Positions 6,189-41,590 of a stretch of DNA of 64,000 nucleotides are shown in pieces. The notes beneath the pieces are model-generated. The model searched no databases. It was not told the DNA's origin and saw only the letters and a program-made list of their open reading frames with translations. The position numbers were made by a program, and so were the translations under genes. Source of the DNA: Salisaeta longa DSM 21114 (GTDB taxonomy: Bacteria > Bacteroidota > Rhodothermia > Rhodothermales > Salinibacteraceae); assembly GCF_000419585.1 (NCBI RefSeq), contig NZ_ATTH01000001.1:642005-706004 (forward strand), in the 5' to 3' direction. Each line of letters begins with the position of its first letter. The stretch's first letter is position 1.

Positions 6189-6815
6189 TCACGCAGGACG
6201 TAGGGCCTCGGCTGCGGTGGCAAACAGGTAGTAGGTAGACGTGGCGCCGGGGTCTTGGTGTCCTTTGCTGCGCTCGCCGAGGTAACTTGCGCGTCCTTTG
6301 CGTGCAACGAGCGGGGTTGTTTCATTCATGCCATCTTTGGCGGCTGCGGCCGCCTGCTGCAGCGCAGCGCCAAACGCTTCGTCGTTGTCTGCCGCCGCGT
6401 GTAGGGCGCGCACGGCGGGCACAAGCGCATCGACCATGGTCTTGTCGCCCAGGTCGGCCTTGCCCCGGCGCTTCACCCCATCGAGGCCCGCCTGCATCAT
6501 GGCCGTCCACGCGGCAAGATCCACCGTATCGGCAGGGGCCGCCTTGGCCGCCTCCATAAAAAACGTCCCGTAGAGCGGTCCGCTGGCCCCGCCGGTTTTG
6601 GAGATGAGCGCCATCGCCACGCTTTTAAGGAGCGCAGGCGGTGTAGACGCCTCCTCAAGGTCCGCAGAGGCCGCACGCAGGCCACGGGTCATGTTTTGAC
6701 CGTGGTCGCCGTCTCCAATCGCTGAATCCAGCGTGGTGAGATACGTCTTGTGTTCGGCCACGTGGTCAGCGAAGGCCTGAATCCAGCGTGCGAGGTCGTT
6801 GGTGGTGAGCGCCAT
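6189..6815 (-). CDS. dhaL: Dihydroxyacetone kinase subunit L, ADP-binding
   Basis: A 208-residue DhaL subunit carrying the tightly bound ADP that DhaM rephosphorylates and that passes phosphate to dihydroxyacetone on DhaK. The magnesium/ADP motif DSAIGDGDHGQNM (about residues 30-42) has the three conserved aspartates. KTGGASGPLYGTFF and the C-terminal RASYLGERSKGHQDPGA are also typical. The ATG at 6815 was preferred over a TTG nine bases upstream because it gives the usual DhaL start. It lies 48 bp downstream of dhaK. Confidence 0.95.
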   Translation of the reverse strand: MALTTNDLARWIQAFADHVAEHKTYLTTLDSAIGDGDHGQNMTRGLRAASADLEEASTPPALLKSVAMALISKTGGASGPLYGTFFMEAAKAAPADTVDLAAWTAMMQAGLDGVKRRGKADLGDKTMVDALVPAVRALHAAADNDEAFGAALQQAAAAAKDGMNETTPLVARKGRASYLGERSKGHQDPGATSTYYLFATAAEALRPA

Positions 6816-6863
6816 GAAAGACAAAAGTCATTGGTGAAGCCAGTGAATGGGCAGCCGATACAG

Positions 6864-7865
6864 CTATACGCCCCACCGCAGCGCAGGCGTGTGCACGGGC
6901 GCATCCCACAAGCGGAGGCGCTCGTCATCCATTTGCAGCATCGTGATGGAGAGCCCCGCCATTTCGAGGCTCGTGATGTACGGCCCTACGAGGTTGCGCA
7001 CCACCCGCAGGCCGTGCTGTTCGGCGACAGCGGCTGCCCGGCGGTACGCCAGGTAGACCTCAATCAGCGGCGTTCCGCCCATGCTGTTAACGAAGAGGAG
7101 GACGTCGTCGCCCGCGGTAAACGGCAGATCCTTGATGATGGGCTCCATGAGCATGTCCACAATTTCATCGGCCGACGCCAGGGGTTTGCGCGCGCGCCCC
7201 GGTTCGCCGTGAATGCCAATCCCGATTTCCATCTCGTCGTCGCTCAGGTCGAAGGTTGGCGTGTCGGAGGTGGGCAGCTGGCACGACGTGAGGGCCATGC
7301 CCATGCTGCGCACGGTGTCGTTGCAGCGATCGGCCAAATCCGCAACGTCGTCGAGCGAATAGCCCGCGTCGGCCGCTGCGCCGCATAGCTTTTCGATCAG
7401 AACCGTGCCGCCCACGCCGCGCCGGCCGGCCGTGTAGGTGCTGTCTTCAACCGCCACGTCGTCGTTGATGACCACGCTGCGCACCTCGACGCCGCTGTCT
7501 GCTGCAAGGTCGGCGGCCATCTCGAAGTTCATCACGTCGCCTGTGTAATTTTTTACCAGGTGGAGCACGCCCGCGCCGCCGTCGATGGCCTCGGTGGCTG
7601 CTTGCATCTGATCGGGGGTGGGGCTGGTGAACACTTCGCCGGGGCAGGCCGCATCGAGCATGCCGCGGCCCACGAAGCCGTTGTGCATGGGCTCGTGTCC
7701 GCTCCCACCGCCCGACAGCAAACCCACCTTGCCCGTTTGGGCCCCGTCGGCGCGAACGACGTACGTGGGATCGGTGTGCACCGTGACGAGGTCAGGGTGG
7801 GCGGCGCCGAAGCCCTGAAGCGATTCGCGGACGACGGCTTCCGGGTCGTTGATGAGTTTTTTCAT
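6864..7865 (-). CDS. dhaK: Dihydroxyacetone kinase subunit K, substrate-binding
   Basis: DhaK binds dihydroxyacetone covalently and presents it for phosphorylation to dihydroxyacetone phosphate. The 333-residue protein has the substrate loop [20 protein letters not shown] (about residues 50-69). The catalytic histidine that forms the hemiaminal is at about residue 219 in [25 protein letters not shown] is a further family signature. The ATG at 7865 gives MKKLINDPE, the normal family start; the upstream in-frame extension looks like leader. First gene of dhaKLM. No DhaR-type activator is in view. Confidence 0.96.
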
Positions 7866-7917
7866 GGGCCGATAGGCAGATGGACGATGGACCGCGTGGA
7901 TTCTTGGAAGCCCTTCC

Positions 7918-7947
7918 AGCATAAGCCGTTGTGCACGAAGGGGGCAA
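7918..7947 (-). promoter_or_regulatory. Possible promoter of dhaKLM
   Basis: On the minus strand TTGCCC (7942-7947) and TATGCT (7918-7923) are 18 bp apart, about 50 bp before the dhaK start. The -35 is weak and no operator-like repeat was found next to it. Confidence 0.35.
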
Positions 7948-8070
7948 CAGGCGCTGTATGACTCCGGAGTGTTGAAGTAAGATGAACATTGGGGGCAGAA
8001 AACGCAACCGGCGGCGCCACTTTTCTTGCATGTGCGCTGCGGGTCCGCGCGCTGACGCTTCGGGGCGTGG

Positions 8071-10212
8071 TTACGGGCGGTAAGTCACAGACAGCGCCAC
8101 GGAGCGTCCGGCAAATCCGTACGGGGCCGCGCGGGGGTAGCGCGCCACGTCGTCGCCCTGATACGGAGCGGGCCACGCGGTGGGGTACTGGTCGAGCAGG
8201 TTGTTGACCCGCAAGCCCACGCGTAGCCGGTTGCCCCACATGGAGCGCCGGACGTGCAGGGCCACGCGCGTTTCGGGAGCAAAGCGCACGTCGTGGGCGG
8301 GCCGAACCCCGCGCCAATGAAAGGCCCCGGCATGCTGGACACGTACGCCCCACCGCCAGCGCGCCGTGGCATACGTGAGGGCCGCGCCGGTGAGGGCGCG
8401 GGGCTGCGCATCGACGAGGGCGCGGCGGGTGGCGCGTCCGAATCCGGGCTCGCGCGTGACGGTTTTGAGCACGCGGGGCGCGGTGTACAGCGCGGCCGCT
8501 TGCACGACGAGTTGCCGGTGGGCGCCGAGCGGGCGCCGGTACGCCGCCCGCGCTTGCACGCCGGGGACTGCCAGATCGAACGCATTGTCGAAGTGCCGGA
8601 TGTAGGGCGCCGATTGTGCGGACTGTCGAAACAGCCGGTCGGGCAGGGCCCGCGAGAGGGTAATGCGGTCGCGGATGAGCTGGTAAAAGAGGCGGCCGCT
8701 TAGGCGGAGCGACGACCCGCGGTACTGTCCGCCCAGGGCTGCTAGAAGCGTGGTTTCTTCGCGGAGCCGGTTGGCATCGCCGCTGCGCGCCAGCTGCGCC
8801 GACGCCACATGCGTGACGCGGGCGACGGTGCGCGGCGGTTGTGCAAGGTTTTGGTCGCCGGTTGTGCGGAGCGGGAGGACCCACGTGTCCAGCGTGGTGG
8901 TGGCGTAGCGCTGCATGAGCGTCGGCAGGCGCAAGCCCATGCGGCCGATCAGGAAGAAGCGGAGGCGCGGGGAAGCCGAAAGGCGAAGGCCCGTGAGGCC
9001 GTTGAGCGTAGCGCTGGAGTCGGAGGCAAAGGCAAAGCGGCCGCCAAAATCGAGCGTGAGGCGCGCCGCCAGCGGGATGGCCACGTCGACGGTTGCATCG
9101 ACCCGCGTGCGGCGCCCGTCGGGTGCGAGGGCGGGATCTAGCGGCTGCAGACCGGCCACCTGCGTCCCGGCCGGAGCCCCTGCCTGCTGCGTTAGCGTCT
9201 CGTGACTGACGCGCGCGCCGGCGTGGACGGCCAGCGGCCGCACGAAGCCGACATCTACTGTTCCGCTAAGCGTAGCCCGCAGCGCGCCGAGGCGTGCGAT
9301 GCGCGCCCCGACGCCCACATCGGGCCGCACGGGCGTGCCCAGCGGCAGAGCGGCCGTGGCGGTTGAGCGGAGGTGCACGGTGTGGTGCTGCGCGGCCAGC
9401 GAGAGGTCGTAGCGCCACGTAGGCGTCCATGGCCCACGCACCCCCGCCACCACAGCGCCGCTGTACACGTCGGTCTGGCTCCACGGTTGTACAGCGCGGG
9501 CCTCATCGGGCCTTGGCGTCCAGCGGAAGCGGGGCGTATCGGTTGCTTTCCACCGCAAACCGCCGGTCGCGTAGAGCGTGGGGCCATCGGCCAGCGGCCA
9601 TGCGCCGTCCACCCACGCGCCGGCCTGACGCACGGCACGCTGTCCCCACCAGCCGTGGGATGGCTGCACGGCGCGCTGCGTGACGGCCCGGTGTTGTCCG
9701 TGGGCATAGGCGTTGAGGAAGCCGTCGTTGGGCAGGCGCCAGCCGCGCGCGAGGGCCGCGGCATAGTGGGCGCCGTCGGAAGGAACGCGGGCCGGTCCGG
9801 TGCGCCCGGCGCGCAGCGTTGTGGTAAGCGGGAGCGGCGTGTTGGGCCAGCGGGTGCGCACCACGCCGCCCAGGACGTCAGTGCCGTAGCGCAGTGCGTT
9901 GTGCGGGGCGACGGCGTATGTTGAAGCGCGGGCCAGGGGCGGCGTCCACGACGCATCCAGCGGCTGTGCGCCAAGCCACCGCCCAGGGGCCGTGTGCAAA
10001 AGCAGCGGCGTGGGGAGTCCGCGGCGGCCCATGCGCAGGCGCAGGCTGCGGTCGGGCGCCAGTCCGTAGCGGGAGGGCGCAGCCACGTGCGCGAGGCCGC
10101 GGGGCATGGTGTAGCGGGGCGATAGCACAAGCGTATCGGCGGGTACCGGCTGGGCCGCTACGGGCCCCAATCCCCACACCATACCGAACACAGCAAGCCA
10201 AACGATGCGCAC
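8071..10212 (-). CDS. TonB-dependent receptor-like outer-membrane protein with reduced plug
   Basis: A 713-residue outer-membrane beta-barrel protein. The GTG at 10212 gives a clean signal peptide ending GLGPVAAQ; longer in-frame extensions run into repeat DNA. The early segment [20 protein letters not shown] matches the end of a TonB-receptor plug. The barrel ends with [17 protein letters not shown] and the strand [15 protein letters not shown], the usual receptor terminus. Only about 120 residues precede the barrel, and no carboxypeptidase-like N-terminal domain is visible, so the plug looks shortened. Its ligand is unknown. It is divergent from the levanase operon, which may hint at carbohydrate uptake, but this is only context. 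Confidence 0.72.
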
Positions 10213-10319
10213 GCGCCAGGTTCTCTGATGAATAAACCGCGGGGCCCGCTTCCCCCTGCGTTGCGCCGTGGGAAATGAGCCTCCCACACGTATCGCCTTT
10301 CGCACCTCGGAGTTGCAAC

Positions 10320-10700
10320 GGGGCCGCTTGGTCATCCTGGAAGGGAGGGCGCCACAGGTCATTCCGTAGGGGAAATCCCGGCAGTGAGGCAATTTACTGA
10401 GCGTGTTTTGCTTGTACACGGAGATCGCATCGTAGATATAACCTTCGGCCCCACCAGTGGCATGACCTCCGGCCCCCGCGTCGCCTTCGGCTCCTCGCGA
10501 TGACAAGAGAAGGGGCTGCTATTATGGTGTGTTGGGCGTGCAGTTGGGCAAACCAACCCGATTGGCCATTTGAACCATTTGGTGTTCATTTTCTCATCAA
10601 CCAATGATGTCATTGCGAGCGAACATAGTGAGCGCGGCAATCTCCACAACCGGGCAATCTCCACAACCGGGCAAACGCCACAAACAGACGATCCCGGCCG
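10320..10700. repeat. Intergenic modular repeat cluster A
   Basis: The 641-bp gap between the receptor and levanase starts is mostly repeat. It has GGTCAT-containing modules near 10333 and 10362, CTTCGGCCCC and ATGACCTCCGGCCCC blocks near 10444 and 10464, the block CTCGCGATGACAAG near 10494, GTTGGGCGTGCAGTTGG near 10532, and its inverted partner GTCATTGCGAGCGAAC near 10606. CAATCTCCACAACCGGG is duplicated in tandem at 10638-10671. The same modules recur near 38350-38550 and 51040-51440. No gene is supported here. Confidence 0.75.
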
Positions 10701-10853
10701 GCACGCCCTTCAGGGGCCACCACGTAAGGCTGTGATGGTGCCGTGGAAGCAGGCACCACGCGATTGCGCGCCGGGGGATGCATTCTTGATGACTCGTTTG
10801 TACGTTATCCCCCGATGTGCTCTGGTTCTGCCCGTCAGATTCTGCGATCTTCC

Positions 10854-12413
10854 ATGCGTTTGCCCTCACTTTCTCCCCTCGGTGTGCTCGCTGCGCTTGT
10901 TGTGCTCCTGGCCGCGCCTGCAGCCGCACAGCGCATCACGTACCGGCCCACGTACGTGGAGCCGCAGCGCCCGCAGTACCACTTCACGCCGGCCATCAAC
11001 TGGATGAATGACCCGAACGGGCTTGTGTACTACAACGGGGAATACCATCTTTTCTACCAGTACAATCCGTACGGCATCCAGTGGGGACACATGAGCTGGG
11101 GCCACGCCGTGAGTACGGATCTGGTGCATTGGACGCACCTGCCGGTGGCCATCCCCGAGCAGAACGGCGTCATGGCGTTTAGCGGAAGTGCGGTGGTGGA
11201 TCATCAAAACACGAGCGGATTCGGCACAACAGAACATCCGCCGATGGTGGCCATCTACACCGGCCATCAGCCCACGAAGCAGGCGCAGTACCTGGCCTAC
11301 AGCACCGACCGCGGCCGCACGTGGACGACCTACGAAGGCAACCCGGTGCTCGACATCGGGCGAAAGAATTTCCGTGATCCCAACGTCTTCTGGTATGCGC
11401 CCGAGCAGAAGTGGGTCATGCTTGTGGCGCTGCCGACGGAGTACAAGGTGCAGTTCTACGAATCGAAGAATTTGAAGGACTGGACCCTCATGAGCACCTT
11501 CGGGCCGCAGGGCGGCACGGGGGGCATCTGGGAATGCCCGGATCTCTTTCGGCTGCCGGTGGAAGGAACCAACGAAACGCGGTGGGTGCTGGAGGTAGAC
11601 ATGAATCCCGGCGCGCTGCACGGCGGCTCGGGCGGGCAGTACTTTGTGGGTTCGTTTGATGGCACGACGTTCACGCGGCTGCCCACGGCCGACACGAGCA
11701 CCGTCAACTGGGTCGACTATGGGAAGGATTTTTACGCGGCCATCGACTGGGCCAACCTGCCGGATGCGCAAAACCGGCACGTGTGGATCGGCTGGATGAA
11801 CAATTGGCAGTACGGCGAGCAGATTCCCACGCACCCGTGGCGCAGCGCGCAGAGCATCCCGCGGCGGCTCGCGCTGCGTCGCACCGATGACGGCTTTCGG
11901 CTCGTGCAGTATCCGGTGCAGGAGCTGCAGCAGCTGCGCGACATCCACCGGCACCTCACCGACCTTCCGGTGCCCGCGGGCACGCACAGCCTGCGCGATC
12001 ACGGCATCAGCGGGCGTGCGCTCGAAATTGTAGCAACCATCGACGTAGGCACGGCCGAAGAGGTGGGGCTGAAGGTGCGCCGCGGCGGCACCGAAGAGAC
12101 CCTGGTGGGCGTGGATGTGCGCGGCGAGCAGGTGTTTGTGGATCGGTCGCGCTCGGGCGTCACCGACTTCAGCGCGCACTTTGCCGGCCGCCACGAGGGA
12201 CCGCTGCCCATCACCGACGGCCGCGTCACCCTGCGCGTGTTCGTGGACTGGTCATCGGTAGAGGTGTTTGCCGACGAGGGCTACACCGTCATCACCGATC
12301 GCATCTTTCCGCAACCGCAACACCAGGGCGTGGCCGTGTACGCCGAGGGCGGCGACGCGCGCATCGTGTCAATGGATGTGTGGACGCTACGTTCGGCCTG
12401 GGCTGTTCGCTGA
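10854..12413 (+). CDS. Secreted levanase/inulinase-type fructan hydrolase (GH32)
   Basis: Glycoside hydrolase family 32 enzyme releasing fructose from fructan or sucrose-type substrates. The ATG at 10854 gives a signal peptide ending LLAAPAAAQ. All three GH32 catalytic signatures are present: NWMNDPNG (nucleophile Asp about 53), FRDPN (about 173-177) and WECPD (acid/base Glu about 227). The C-terminal beta-sandwich includes LRVFVDWSSVEVFADEG. The length of 519 residues fits exo-acting levanases. The fructokinase starts 19 bp after its stop and a sugar porter follows, so the three genes form a fructan operon. Whether levan, inulin or sucrose is preferred cannot be told. Confidence 0.93.
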   Translation: MRLPSLSPLGVLAALVVLLAAPAAAQRITYRPTYVEPQRPQYHFTPAINWMNDPNGLVYYNGEYHLFYQYNPYGIQWGHMSWGHAVSTDLVHWTHLPVAIPEQNGVMAFSGSAVVDHQNTSGFGTTEHPPMVAIYTGHQPTKQAQYLAYSTDRGRTWTTYEGNPVLDIGRKNFRDPNVFWYAPEQKWVMLVALPTEYKVQFYESKNLKDWTLMSTFGPQGGTGGIWECPDLFRLPVEGTNETRWVLEVDMNPGALHGGSGGQYFVGSFDGTTFTRLPTADTSTVNWVDYGKDFYAAIDWANLPDAQNRHVWIGWMNNWQYGEQIPTHPWRSAQSIPRRLALRRTDDGFRLVQYPVQELQQLRDIHRHLTDLPVPAGTHSLRDHGISGRALEIVATIDVGTAEEVGLKVRRGGTEETLVGVDVRGEQVFVDRSRSGVTDFSAHFAGRHEGPLPITDGRVTLRVFVDWSSVEVFADEGYTVITDRIFPQPQHQGVAVYAEGGDARIVSMDVWTLRSAWAVR

Positions 12414-38329: not shown

Positions 38330-38560
38330 CTGCTCGTTCGGGACGGGAGCGTGGGGGCCTTTAGGTCATCCCGCAGGGGAGGCCGAAGGTCATGCCTGTG
38401 GTGCAATCTCCGCAGACGAGCAGGAACGCACCATGCAATGAAAACGAGGTTTGGGCCTTTAGGTCATGCTGGAAGTGAGGCCTTTAGGTCATGCCGCAGG
38501 GGGGGGCCGAAGGTCATCCCTGTGGTGCAATCTCCACGAACGAGCAAACCCTGCTGCGGG
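38330..38560. repeat. Intergenic modular repeat cluster B
   Basis: The 389-bp gap between metX and the next gene carries a 66-67-bp unit twice, at about 38357-38423 and 38480-38545. Each unit reads GCCTTTAGGTCAT, then a CCGCAGGGG box, GGCCGAAGGTCAT, TGTGGTGCAATCTCC and a CGAGCA end. A third GCCTTTAGGTCATGC starts near 38456. The modules are the same as in clusters at 10320 and 51040. No gene is supported here. Confidence 0.75.
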
Positions 38561-38705: not shown

Positions 38706-39713
38706 ATGTCGTATTTCCGCACGTCGCATCACCGAAGGCCACAGGGCAGCTCGCGCAGATTCCGGGCGCTCGCGCGTGTCGTGGCGTGGATGGCCCTGCT
38801 GGGCGCGGGCCTGCTGGGCGTCGCCACCACCCGCGCGCAGACGTTCGACACCAACGTGGCGAAGAACGCCCTTCCGGGCACCGCAACCAACACCGTCGTC
38901 GCCCCCCCCGCGTTCTACAACCCCAGCGGCGCAGACGGCACCCTCGGGACCCTCGACGACGACTTCCGTGGCGACAAAACACAGGGCAGCCCCCTCCTGG
39001 ATGCCGCCGAACCGGCGTACACGGCGCTTCCGGTGGCGCTCAACGAGCAACCCTTCGTCGATAGCTCGACCCTGCAAGAAACCGGCGACCCTGCCGACCG
39101 CGACCTTGGAGCCTTCGAGTCGCACAGCGACGCGCTGCCCGTTGAGCTTGCGTCGTTTAGCGTGCGCTATGCCCCCAACGCGCCGGGCCCCGGCGACGAC
39201 GAAGTCCGCGTGGCGTGGCGCACCCTCAGCGAAACGAACAACGCGTACTTTGCCATCCAACGCAAAACAAAGGAGGGCTGGGAGCGCCTGAAGCGCGTGC
39301 CCGGCGCCGGGTCTACCAACCAGCCCCAGTCCTACCGCGCGGTGCTTCGCGTTTCTCCGGGCGCGGCCCCCCTCCGCTACCGGCTCCGCCAGGTGGATGC
39401 CGACGGCGCAGCGACGTATACCGAGGCCATCACGCTGGAGCGCGTCGCGGCCGGCAACACCGTCACCGCCTATCCCAACCCGAGCACGGGGCGCGTGACG
39501 CTCGCCATCGAGGCGCTGCGACAGGGCACGGCGGATCTCACCATCTACAACCTGCTCGGGCAGCGCGTGCATCGTGTGGACGATGTGCGCATCGCGGAAG
39601 GACAAACGCAACAAACGGTGCATCTGCCAGCGGTAAGCAGCGGGCAGTACTTCCTCCACCTCACCTACGAAGACGGGCGCACGGCCACCGAACGACTGAC
39701 GATAGTGCAATGA
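38706..39713 (+). CDS. Exported protein with beta-helix tail remnant and T9SS sorting domain
   Basis: A 335-residue exported protein. A signal peptide (ALARVVAWMALLGAGLLGVA) ends at about residue 45. The next roughly 95 residues, with GADGTLGTLDDDFRGDKTQG, SPLLDAAE and PADRDLGAFE, match the very end of 'choice-of-anchor Q' right-handed beta-helix proteins, with no helix before it. A linker domain (VRVAWRTLSETNNAYFAIQR) follows. The C-terminus is a type A type IX secretion domain (VTAYPNPSTGRVTLAI, YNLLGQRV, SGQYFLHLTYEDGRTATERL). It is probably surface-anchored or secreted. Its stop overlaps the next start as ATGA. Confidence 0.8.
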   Translation: MSYFRTSHHRRPQGSSRRFRALARVVAWMALLGAGLLGVATTRAQTFDTNVAKNALPGTATNTVVAPPAFYNPSGADGTLGTLDDDFRGDKTQGSPLLDAAEPAYTALPVALNEQPFVDSSTLQETGDPADRDLGAFESHSDALPVELASFSVRYAPNAPGPGDDEVRVAWRTLSETNNAYFAIQRKTKEGWERLKRVPGAGSTNQPQSYRAVLRVSPGAAPLRYRLRQVDADGAATYTEAITLERVAAGNTVTAYPNPSTGRVTLAIEALRQGTADLTIYNLLGQRVHRVDDVRIAEGQTQQTVHLPAVSSGQYFLHLTYEDGRTATERLTIVQ

Positions 39714-41590
39714 ACAAAGCAAACACCCCCCTCACCTACCTCCTCGCAGGCATCACCGCCCTCACCACGCTCGGAGGCACACAGCAACCACAACAACACA
39801 GACAACAAACAAACGCGCAACACACGCACTACGTCGACGAAGACGCACAAGGCGCAAACAACGGAAACAACTGGGGAGACGCATACACCTCGCTCCAAGA
39901 CGCGCTCAGCGAAGCAGAACAAACCAATGGGACCGACGCAATCTACGTCGCAGAAGGCACATACACCCCAGACGAAGGAAACAACGTCGAACTCGGCGAC
40001 CGCACCGCAACGTTCACCGTGCCAAGCGGCGTCTCCATCCACGGACGATTCACCGGAACCGAAACCAACCCTGAAGACCGCCTCCTCGCACGCGGCGCAA
40101 ACCCCACCACGCTCAGCGGAGAAATCGGAGGGGTCGGAGCAGCAGACAACAGCTACACCGTCGTCACACTCAACGGCGGAACACTCGACAACGTCCGCGT
40201 CGCACACGGAAACGCAGACGGACCCGACGAGCTCAGACGCGGCGGCGGCATAGACGTGGAAAGCGGCCACCTCCACAACGTATGGGTGCAACAAAACCAA
40301 GCAGAACAAGGCGGCGGGCTCTATATCGACGGCACCGCAACCCTCGAAAACGTCGTCGTCAACGAAAACCAGGCGCCGGAAGCAAGCGGCGTACTCGTCA
40401 CCGACGGCTCAAGCACGATCTCACACCTCACCCTCCGAGACGACATGACCATCGTCGACAACGACCCCATGCGGACAACGGACAACACCGTCGTCGCAAA
40501 CAGCGTCCTCGACGGAAACGTCGACGTCCTCACACCGAAACAAAACGTGATCGACTTCTCCCTACACGAAGTCGGAGAAGACCTCTACGACACCGGGGAC
40601 GCCCCCGGAACACTCGAAGAACTACGCGTCACCGTCGGAGACGACACGTACACGACGGATATGACAGACGGCTCCGGAACCGTCACCGTTCCCACGACTC
40701 GACTCACAGACTCCCTGCGCGTCACGATGAGCGACGACGACTACATCAGCACGTGGATGCTCAACCGCACTGGGAGTGAAGACGCACCGGACCTCACCAT
40801 CACAGGGGCAGCCCGAACGGAGTTCGCGCCCGAACCCGACTACCAGAGCAACTACGACAAAAACACGCGGAGTCCAGATTTTAAGAACGGAACGGCTGGG
40901 AACGCGACGAATGGGAACGAGAACATCGAGTTCCCCGCAGACAACATCGACACGAGCTACGAAGTCCGCGTCATCCCCAAGACAAGCCCTGAAGGATACA
41001 GCGTCTACGGCGAGTACTTCCCCCACCTCAACGGAGGGAGGACGAAACGGTGGACGAGCCTGGAAGGCCTCGACGAAGACAAAGTCTACCTCTACGACGC
41101 CGGGCAGAGCCAAGCATTCTTCGACCGCGCACGAAAAGCATACGCAGACATACGAAAAATCATACCAGTCCCAACGAGCGACGCGAAACGACTGACGTTC
41201 GACCCACTCGAACAAATCTACGAGGACCGGAATAACGCACTCATAACCCGTATAGAAGAAGGGCCACCAGGAAACGGGGTTAGACCACGAGGACGGTTCA
41301 TCGAAAACTCAACTGCAAGCTTTAGTACATCAAGTGGTCAAGCTACGTTTTTATCTGAGATTTACAGTTCATTCACTGGGTATGACACTGCGTTTAGAAA
41401 CGGAGTGCAGTACGAGCCTAACGACACGCTGTTTGAGTTCACACCGCAAGGAGAACCATATTTCAACAACGACGCGGAGTTCATGGTACGCATCACGTAC
41501 AGCACGTTCTCCGCCAGCAAGTTAGGTAGACGAAGCGAATCTCCTTTTTTCTTCCGTTCCTCTGGTTCCGCTCATCCGGTTCGTCGCTAA
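39710..41590 (+). CDS. Beta-helix-head exported protein with A/C-biased coding strand
   Basis: A 626-residue protein of unknown function. After a weak signal-like segment (TYLLAGITALTTLGG) it has the start of a right-handed beta-helix: HYVDEDAQGANNGNNWGDAY, IYVAEGTYTPDEG, VPSGVSIHGRFTGTETNPED, then repeats such as RRGGGIDVESGHLHNVWVQQ. From about residue 270 nothing familiar remains. No T9SS domain is present and the C-terminus is basic (SKLGRRSESPFF onward). The coding strand is extremely rich in A and C; 39781-39840 has only two T and eight G. From about 41230 it changes to AT-rich DNA. It looks like a mosaic acquired gene, coupled by ATGA overlap to the gene before. Confidence 0.65.
   Translation: MNKANTPLTYLLAGITALTTLGGTQQPQQHRQQTNAQHTHYVDEDAQGANNGNNWGDAYTSLQDALSEAEQTNGTDAIYVAEGTYTPDEGNNVELGDRTATFTVPSGVSIHGRFTGTETNPEDRLLARGANPTTLSGEIGGVGAADNSYTVVTLNGGTLDNVRVAHGNADGPDELRRGGGIDVESGHLHNVWVQQNQAEQGGGLYIDGTATLENVVVNENQAPEASGVLVTDGSSTISHLTLRDDMTIVDNDPMRTTDNTVVANSVLDGNVDVLTPKQNVIDFSLHEVGEDLYDTGDAPGTLEELRVTVGDDTYTTDMTDGSGTVTVPTTRLTDSLRVTMSDDDYISTWMLNRTGSEDAPDLTITGAARTEFAPEPDYQSNYDKNTRSPDFKNGTAGNATNGNENIEFPADNIDTSYEVRVIPKTSPEGYSVYGEYFPHLNGGRTKRWTSLEGLDEDKVYLYDAGQSQAFFDRARKAYADIRKIIPVPTSDAKRLTFDPLEQIYEDRNNALITRIEEGPPGNGVRPRGRFIENSTASFSTSSGQATFLSEIYSSFTGYDTAFRNGVQYEPNDTLFEFTPQGEPYFNNDAEFMVRITYSTFSASKLGRRSESPFFFRSSGSAHPVRR

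Follow-up and report, generated by a model that had tools for sequence, protein, structure and literature searches.

A possible mobile two-gene cassette for a T9SS surface protein, a split choice-of-anchor Q beta-helix, in Salisaeta longa

Two overlapping genes in a 64,000-nucleotide stretch of the genome of Salisaeta longa DSM 21114 (the window) raise the question of why the parts of one choice-of-anchor Q beta-helix protein should lie on two genes and in reverse order. An earlier note, made from the sequence alone, assigned a signal, the tail and a T9SS domain to the first gene and the head, some repeats and an unfamiliar C-terminus to the second, and offered two interpretations, variant-generating recombination within a surface-protein cassette and a two-part complex. 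Both reading frames are present in this reverse order, and their parts were confirmed by TIGR04183, PF18962 and profiles of the tail and the head. The anatomy of the pair and its conservation are solid. The pair looks like a working two-part machine rather than a broken gene, since the same odd pair occurs at unrelated places in two relatives.

Gene 1 (38706..39713, 335 aa), which like gene 2 lies on the + strand, encodes a signal peptide, the last beta-helix coil or tail, a linker domain and a T9SS type A sorting domain. The signal peptide (38706..38840) was recognized by eye, with cleavage at about A-Q (residues 44-45), and A44 and Q45 are invariant in an alignment of gene 1 across three genomes. 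The tail (PAFYNPSGADGTLGTLDDD...SPLLDA...DLGAFE; 38889..39119; also A4 profile) was detected at 23.1 bits (E 1.1e-5) by a profile built for this work from 14 intact tails collected by motif search, and the best of 2,100 shuffled sequences reached 8.9 bits. The sorting domain (residues 256-332; 39471..39701) scored 43.7 bits with TIGR04183 against a cut-off of 23, which identifies gene 1 as T9SS type A cargo, and 40.9 bits with PF18962. Gene 1 of two relatives scored 31.0 and 36.5 bits with TIGR04183. The same tail profile matched both gene 1 copies of one relative, G210 (33-33.6 and 31 bits), and did not match gene 1 of the other, G020, so that three of the four gene 1 copies are matched; this and the shortness of the tail count against the explanation preferred below. 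With the NCBI curated choice-of-anchor Q model, NF041518, gene 1 had no match at E<=1 in any of the three genomes.

Gene 2 (39710..41590, 626 aa) begins within an ATGA overlap (39710..39713), which is real because the stop codon of gene 1 occupies 39711-39713 and the ATG of gene 2 occupies 39710-39712. It encodes a signal-like start, the head, helix rungs and a unique C-terminus. The head (YVDEDAQGANNGNNWGDAYTSLQDAL...; 39821..40110) scored 122 bits with the head profile, and the gene 2 proteins of the two relatives scored 128 and 115 bits, which marks the three heads as homologous; identity of the window head to heads within long frames of the same genome reaches 51%. The helix rungs (RRGGGIDVESGHLHNVWVQQNQ...; 40115..40495) align across the three genomes at 32-40% identity. 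The C-terminus of about 340 residues contains a part (40547..40834; 34-39% identity across the three genomes) that is guessed to be a beta-sandwich with an Ig-like fold, and a C-terminal domain (40835..41530) with an SExYS motif that is invariant in the three pair-bearing genomes and reads LSEIYSSFTG in the window. The last strand of the C-terminus is similar among these genomes, reading AxFxVxIxY in two of them and AFPVNMEY in the other.

The earlier description of this C-terminus as unfamiliar and free of a sorting domain held up. TIGR04183, PF18962 and CHU_C did not match gene 2 of the three genomes, so that gene 2 is not recognized as T9SS type A cargo by these models, and the tail profile found nothing in gene 2. 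No family was assigned to gene 2 of the three genomes by Pfam, where PF03211 appeared below threshold, or by NCBIfam, nor to gene 2 by PHROGs or by PADLOC, with which the window proteins were searched. The C-terminal pieces gave no Pfam match above threshold (PF22532 and PF13648 appeared below it), and profile comparison with solved structures gave no match. Single-sequence AlphaFold models had a pLDDT of 38.5 for gene 2 and 30.8 for the C-terminal domain, values too poor for a fold search. A decayed metzincin, with SExYS in place of HExxH, was considered and set aside as a motif reading that no tool supported.

The normal order of these parts, given in the earlier note as head, tail and T9SS domain, is borne out by intact relatives. 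An intact paralogue is encoded in the window genome itself (G000:C1:522241-525942; 1667 aa; head-tail-head-tail-T9SS), and it scored 38.8 bits with NF041518 against a cut-off of 25. The case in which no intact paralogue exists and profiles lend no support therefore does not apply. Outside the pairs, 19 head-bearing frames were counted at the loci examined, as distinct closed frames, with frames cut by a locus end, same-place duplicates and the pair genes left out. Sixteen of these carry head, tail and T9SS domain on one chain, some with tandem modules, and one carries head and tail with no T9SS domain detected. The remaining two (L030 and L057) are head-only, with a T9SS frame downstream in another reading frame; these splits keep the normal order and are probably frameshifts. 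At L057 (3812-6301; G000:C2), a head frame of 233 aa is followed by a T9SS frame of 569 aa. A tail-T9SS gene ahead of a head gene was found for none of the 19 frames. Because head, tail and T9SS domain share one chain in the intact relatives, the pair jointly supplies exactly one set, which in all three pairs is split and reversed.

The distribution of the pair was determined in a class sample comprising all 244 species genomes obtained. The gene 2 C-terminus was clearly matched in three of them, the window genome (G000), G020 and G210; matches at E 0.007-0.1 in five other genomes were marginal and were set aside as likely chance. In a phylum sample of 394 genomes it was found in G000 and was absent from the other 393. 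Run against the 244 genomes, a gene 1 tail profile listed 22 matches, spread over 16 genomes. Frames shorter than 400 aa hold four of the 22 listed matches, one each in G000 and G020 and two in G210, of which one is at a contig end; the other 18 lie in frames of at least 559 aa. The short, tail-only frames are thus confined to the three genomes with a clear gene 2 C-terminus. In all three pair-bearing genomes gene 1 directly precedes gene 2, both genes sharing one strand, and the sites are unrelated. The reversed pair is no local accident, since it recurs adjacent and in the same order at unrelated sites in three genomes. The ATGA overlap is not conserved, the genes being separated by about 157 bases in G020 and about 142 bases in G210; this, and the small number of genomes carrying the pair (just three), count against the preferred explanation.

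Region by region and signals aside, protein identity among the three pairs is 0.29-0.53. G020 and G210 belong to the same genus, yet the resemblance between their pairs scarcely exceeds that of either to the window pair. Within that genus, uvrC genes match that of G020 over nearly their full length at 83-95% DNA identity, and uvrC of G210 matches it at 86% over 148 bases only. Set beside uvrC, the divergence of the pairs fits horizontal spread or fast change in which the two genes stayed together.

Selection on gene 1 was estimated from the two G210 copies, compared over 113 codons; about 5% contamination is listed for this assembly, so the two copies may stem from two strains. Over 80 mature codons dN was 0.045 and dS 0.487 (dN/dS about 0.09), with eight changes at codon positions 1 and 2 and 21 at position 3, whereas the 33-codon signal gave a dN of 0.31 and a dS of 0.61. 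As judged from this one pair of sequences, the gene 1 tail is conserved as protein and under purifying selection.

The G020 pair is flanked by msrA and uvrC (gene names read from translations) and sits in a block of about 4.5 kb (L055, about 6638-11118) that contains both genes. The sister species G007, G012 and G015 lack the block; the sequence on either side of it aligns, and 142 to 413 unmatched bases take its place. In a fourth sister species (G021) about 180 bases separate the aligned msrA and uvrC regions, and in a fifth (G017) uvrC alone aligned. The block also holds a LamG frame (PF13385, 74.5 bits; L055 9621-11084) that is convergent with gene 2, lies 5 bases from its stop and is apparently 5'-truncated. 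One G210 pair adjoins a tyrosine recombinase (PF00589, 51.2 bits), and an inverted att-like site (TTATAACAACCGATAA) with a 7-base spacer lies between the two. A similar site precedes the second G210 gene 1 by about 150 bases, and such sites recur elsewhere in genomes of genus g8. No att-like site was found in the window with up to three mismatches allowed, or on the G020 contig bearing the pair, and the window genome has a single occurrence outside the window, with two mismatches. The integrase link is therefore limited to one genome. At the window no empty site was available for comparison, because in seven other genomes of the family the surroundings of the S9 neighbour, out to about 1.5 kb, contain neither metX nor the pair. 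Mobility of the pair is solid for one genome and suggested for another.

The recurrence in three genomes, the G020 block, the integrase neighbour and the purifying selection on the tail together point to a conserved, horizontally moving two-gene cassette. The explanation preferred here, tentatively and at somewhat less than an even chance, is that the pair forms a mobile cassette whose two genes each encode one piece of a T9SS surface protein related to the choice-of-anchor Q beta-helix proteins. Gene 1 would be a small exported adaptor composed of the last helix coil or tail, a linker and the T9SS signal, and gene 2, with no recognized sorting signal, would contribute the cap at the front, the body of the helix and an additional C-terminal domain. 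The signal peptides would bring both proteins into the periplasm, where the tail coil of gene 1 would complete the open end of the gene 2 helix, capping or docking onto it. The T9SS would then carry the folded pair out on the gene 1 signal, supplied in trans, and leave the C-terminal domain of gene 2 displayed on the surface. Formation of a physical complex and export in trans are inferred here; that a small protein of tail and sorting domain completes the beta-helix of a signal-less partner and brings it across the outer membrane as a folded complex, and that both move as a single cassette with the C-terminal domain as a new displayed module, is possible, with the chances leaning against it.

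T9SS cargo crosses the outer membrane via the large SprA pore. A 2024 translocon paper describes the CTD bound in the SprA pore with PorV (PMC10994853). The choice-of-anchor Q proteins with T9SS type A domains (NF041518 and TIGR04183) are the closest known system in module content, since each of their modules (head, helix, tail and T9SS) is found in one or the other gene of the pair and intact single-chain members are encoded in the same genome. The pair differs from them in that its modules lie on two genes in reversed order, the gene 1 tail falls below NF041518 detection and gene 2 has an extra, unique C-terminus. Hitchhiker or piggyback export, described for Tat and for peroxisomes (PMC9251779), would offer an analogy in which one subunit carries the signal for a signal-less partner, as proposed for the pair. 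No precedent for a T9SS hitchhiker was recognized in the literature searched on co-secretion and piggyback export, which counts against the proposal. Should the two proteins form a complex, the T9SS would here naturally export a folded protein that lacks a signal of its own, and a beta-helix would have been divided in nature at its last coil.

The two genes may instead encode secreted proteins that are independent of one another, a small surface protein of the T9SS (gene 1) and a periplasmic or otherwise sorted protein (gene 2), and that move jointly solely through their neighbouring positions on a mobile block. The block insertion in G020 and the integrase beside one copy agree with co-transfer, and the gene 2 C-terminus, with a last strand that is alike in three genomes, could hide an unrecognized sorting signal. 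However, both genes are complementary fragments of one protein family in constant order, and chance adjacency predicts neither complementary parts nor tail-only frames limited to genomes with gene 2. Co-transfer is a real possibility that falls well short of probable; even then the pair would be a new mobile surface-protein cassette with an uncharacterized domain. Of the two interpretations in the earlier note, the two-part complex gains support, as the genes keep their adjacency and order in each of the three genomes at 29-53% protein identity and the tail is under purifying selection. Variant-generating recombination is not supported in the form proposed, no partial or silent copies, shared breakpoint or variable repertoire being found around the window pair; the history is instead one of whole-pair block insertion in G020 and of an integrase with an att-like site in G210. 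In-place recombination or a phase-variation cassette that reshuffles surface-protein parts could draw on the inverted sites and tyrosine recombinase beside one G210 copy, the site upstream of the second gene 1 and a composition of gene 2 that shifts along its length, but it is very unlikely given the near absence of such sites from the window genome and the G020 contig and the lack of donor fragments around the pair.

Decay is rated marginally lower still. A deletion or fusion between two tandem intact genes would leave gene 1 without head and helix and gene 2 without tail and sorting domain, both of them decaying. In favour of this, the window genome often has modules in tandem and paralogues side by side. 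A near-repeat (15 of 16 bases; 38888-38903 and 40483-40498) lies at the would-be break points, and a third copy exists. The architecture is nevertheless the same in three divergent genomes with full-length open frames in each, and the low dN/dS of the tail weakens decay. Of the two copies at these points, one falls where the gene 1 tail starts and the other where the gene 2 helix ends, and both encode NTVVA, which may be chance.

Only slightly more credible, and still unlikely, is an origin of gene 2 or its C-terminus in a foreign, possibly archaeal, halophile, gene 1 being the residue of a host surface gene after insertion. Third positions of gene 2 codons 1-180 (A.32, C.59, G.08, T.01) depart from those of the host metX (A.05, C.44, G.41, T.10). 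Codon use at 39710-41250 (Ala GCA 26/37, Leu CTC 31/36) is extremely biased and unlike that of every other gene sampled from the genome, and the frame holding gene 2, ranked with a spurious upstream extension, had the highest A3+C3 among 155 greedy frames (about 290 kb of the window genome). Gene 2 of G020 resembles its host in composition up to about codon 270, beyond which it shows the same bias, and it abuts the LamG frame of other composition, in which one short 27-residue stretch with CYDGKDND matches a Pacearchaeota MAG. Against a foreign source, the nearest relatives of the head belong to the same order, and no relatives of gene 2 were found in IMG/VR or phages, nor of its C-terminus in plasmids.

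In all three genomes GC drops to.43-.50 within the last 100-150 codons of gene 2. Polymorphic toxins have swappable AT-rich C-termini, and gene 2 resembles them in its conserved front and compositionally odd, AT-rich end. It differs from them in that its C-terminus is homologous in all three genomes. An immunity-like gene was not found downstream of the pair, which is followed instead by an S9 peptidase in the window, the convergent LamG frame in G020 and the integrase in G210.

Several minor observations were made near the pairs. Att-like inverted sites (TTATAACARCCGATAA) with 7-base spacers lie at L058 6048-6091 and L091 508-523, one of them beside a tyrosine recombinase. Next to the second G210 gene 1 (L091 598-5745), genes for AAA_13 (PDC-S06-like, a defence candidate) and an SMC-like ATPase are present and possibly form a defence island. 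Directly upstream of the window gene 1 (38355-38546), local direct repeats of 30 nt (three copies) and 47 nt (two copies) share 83-89% identity, and a 24-base core occurs just twice within the window.
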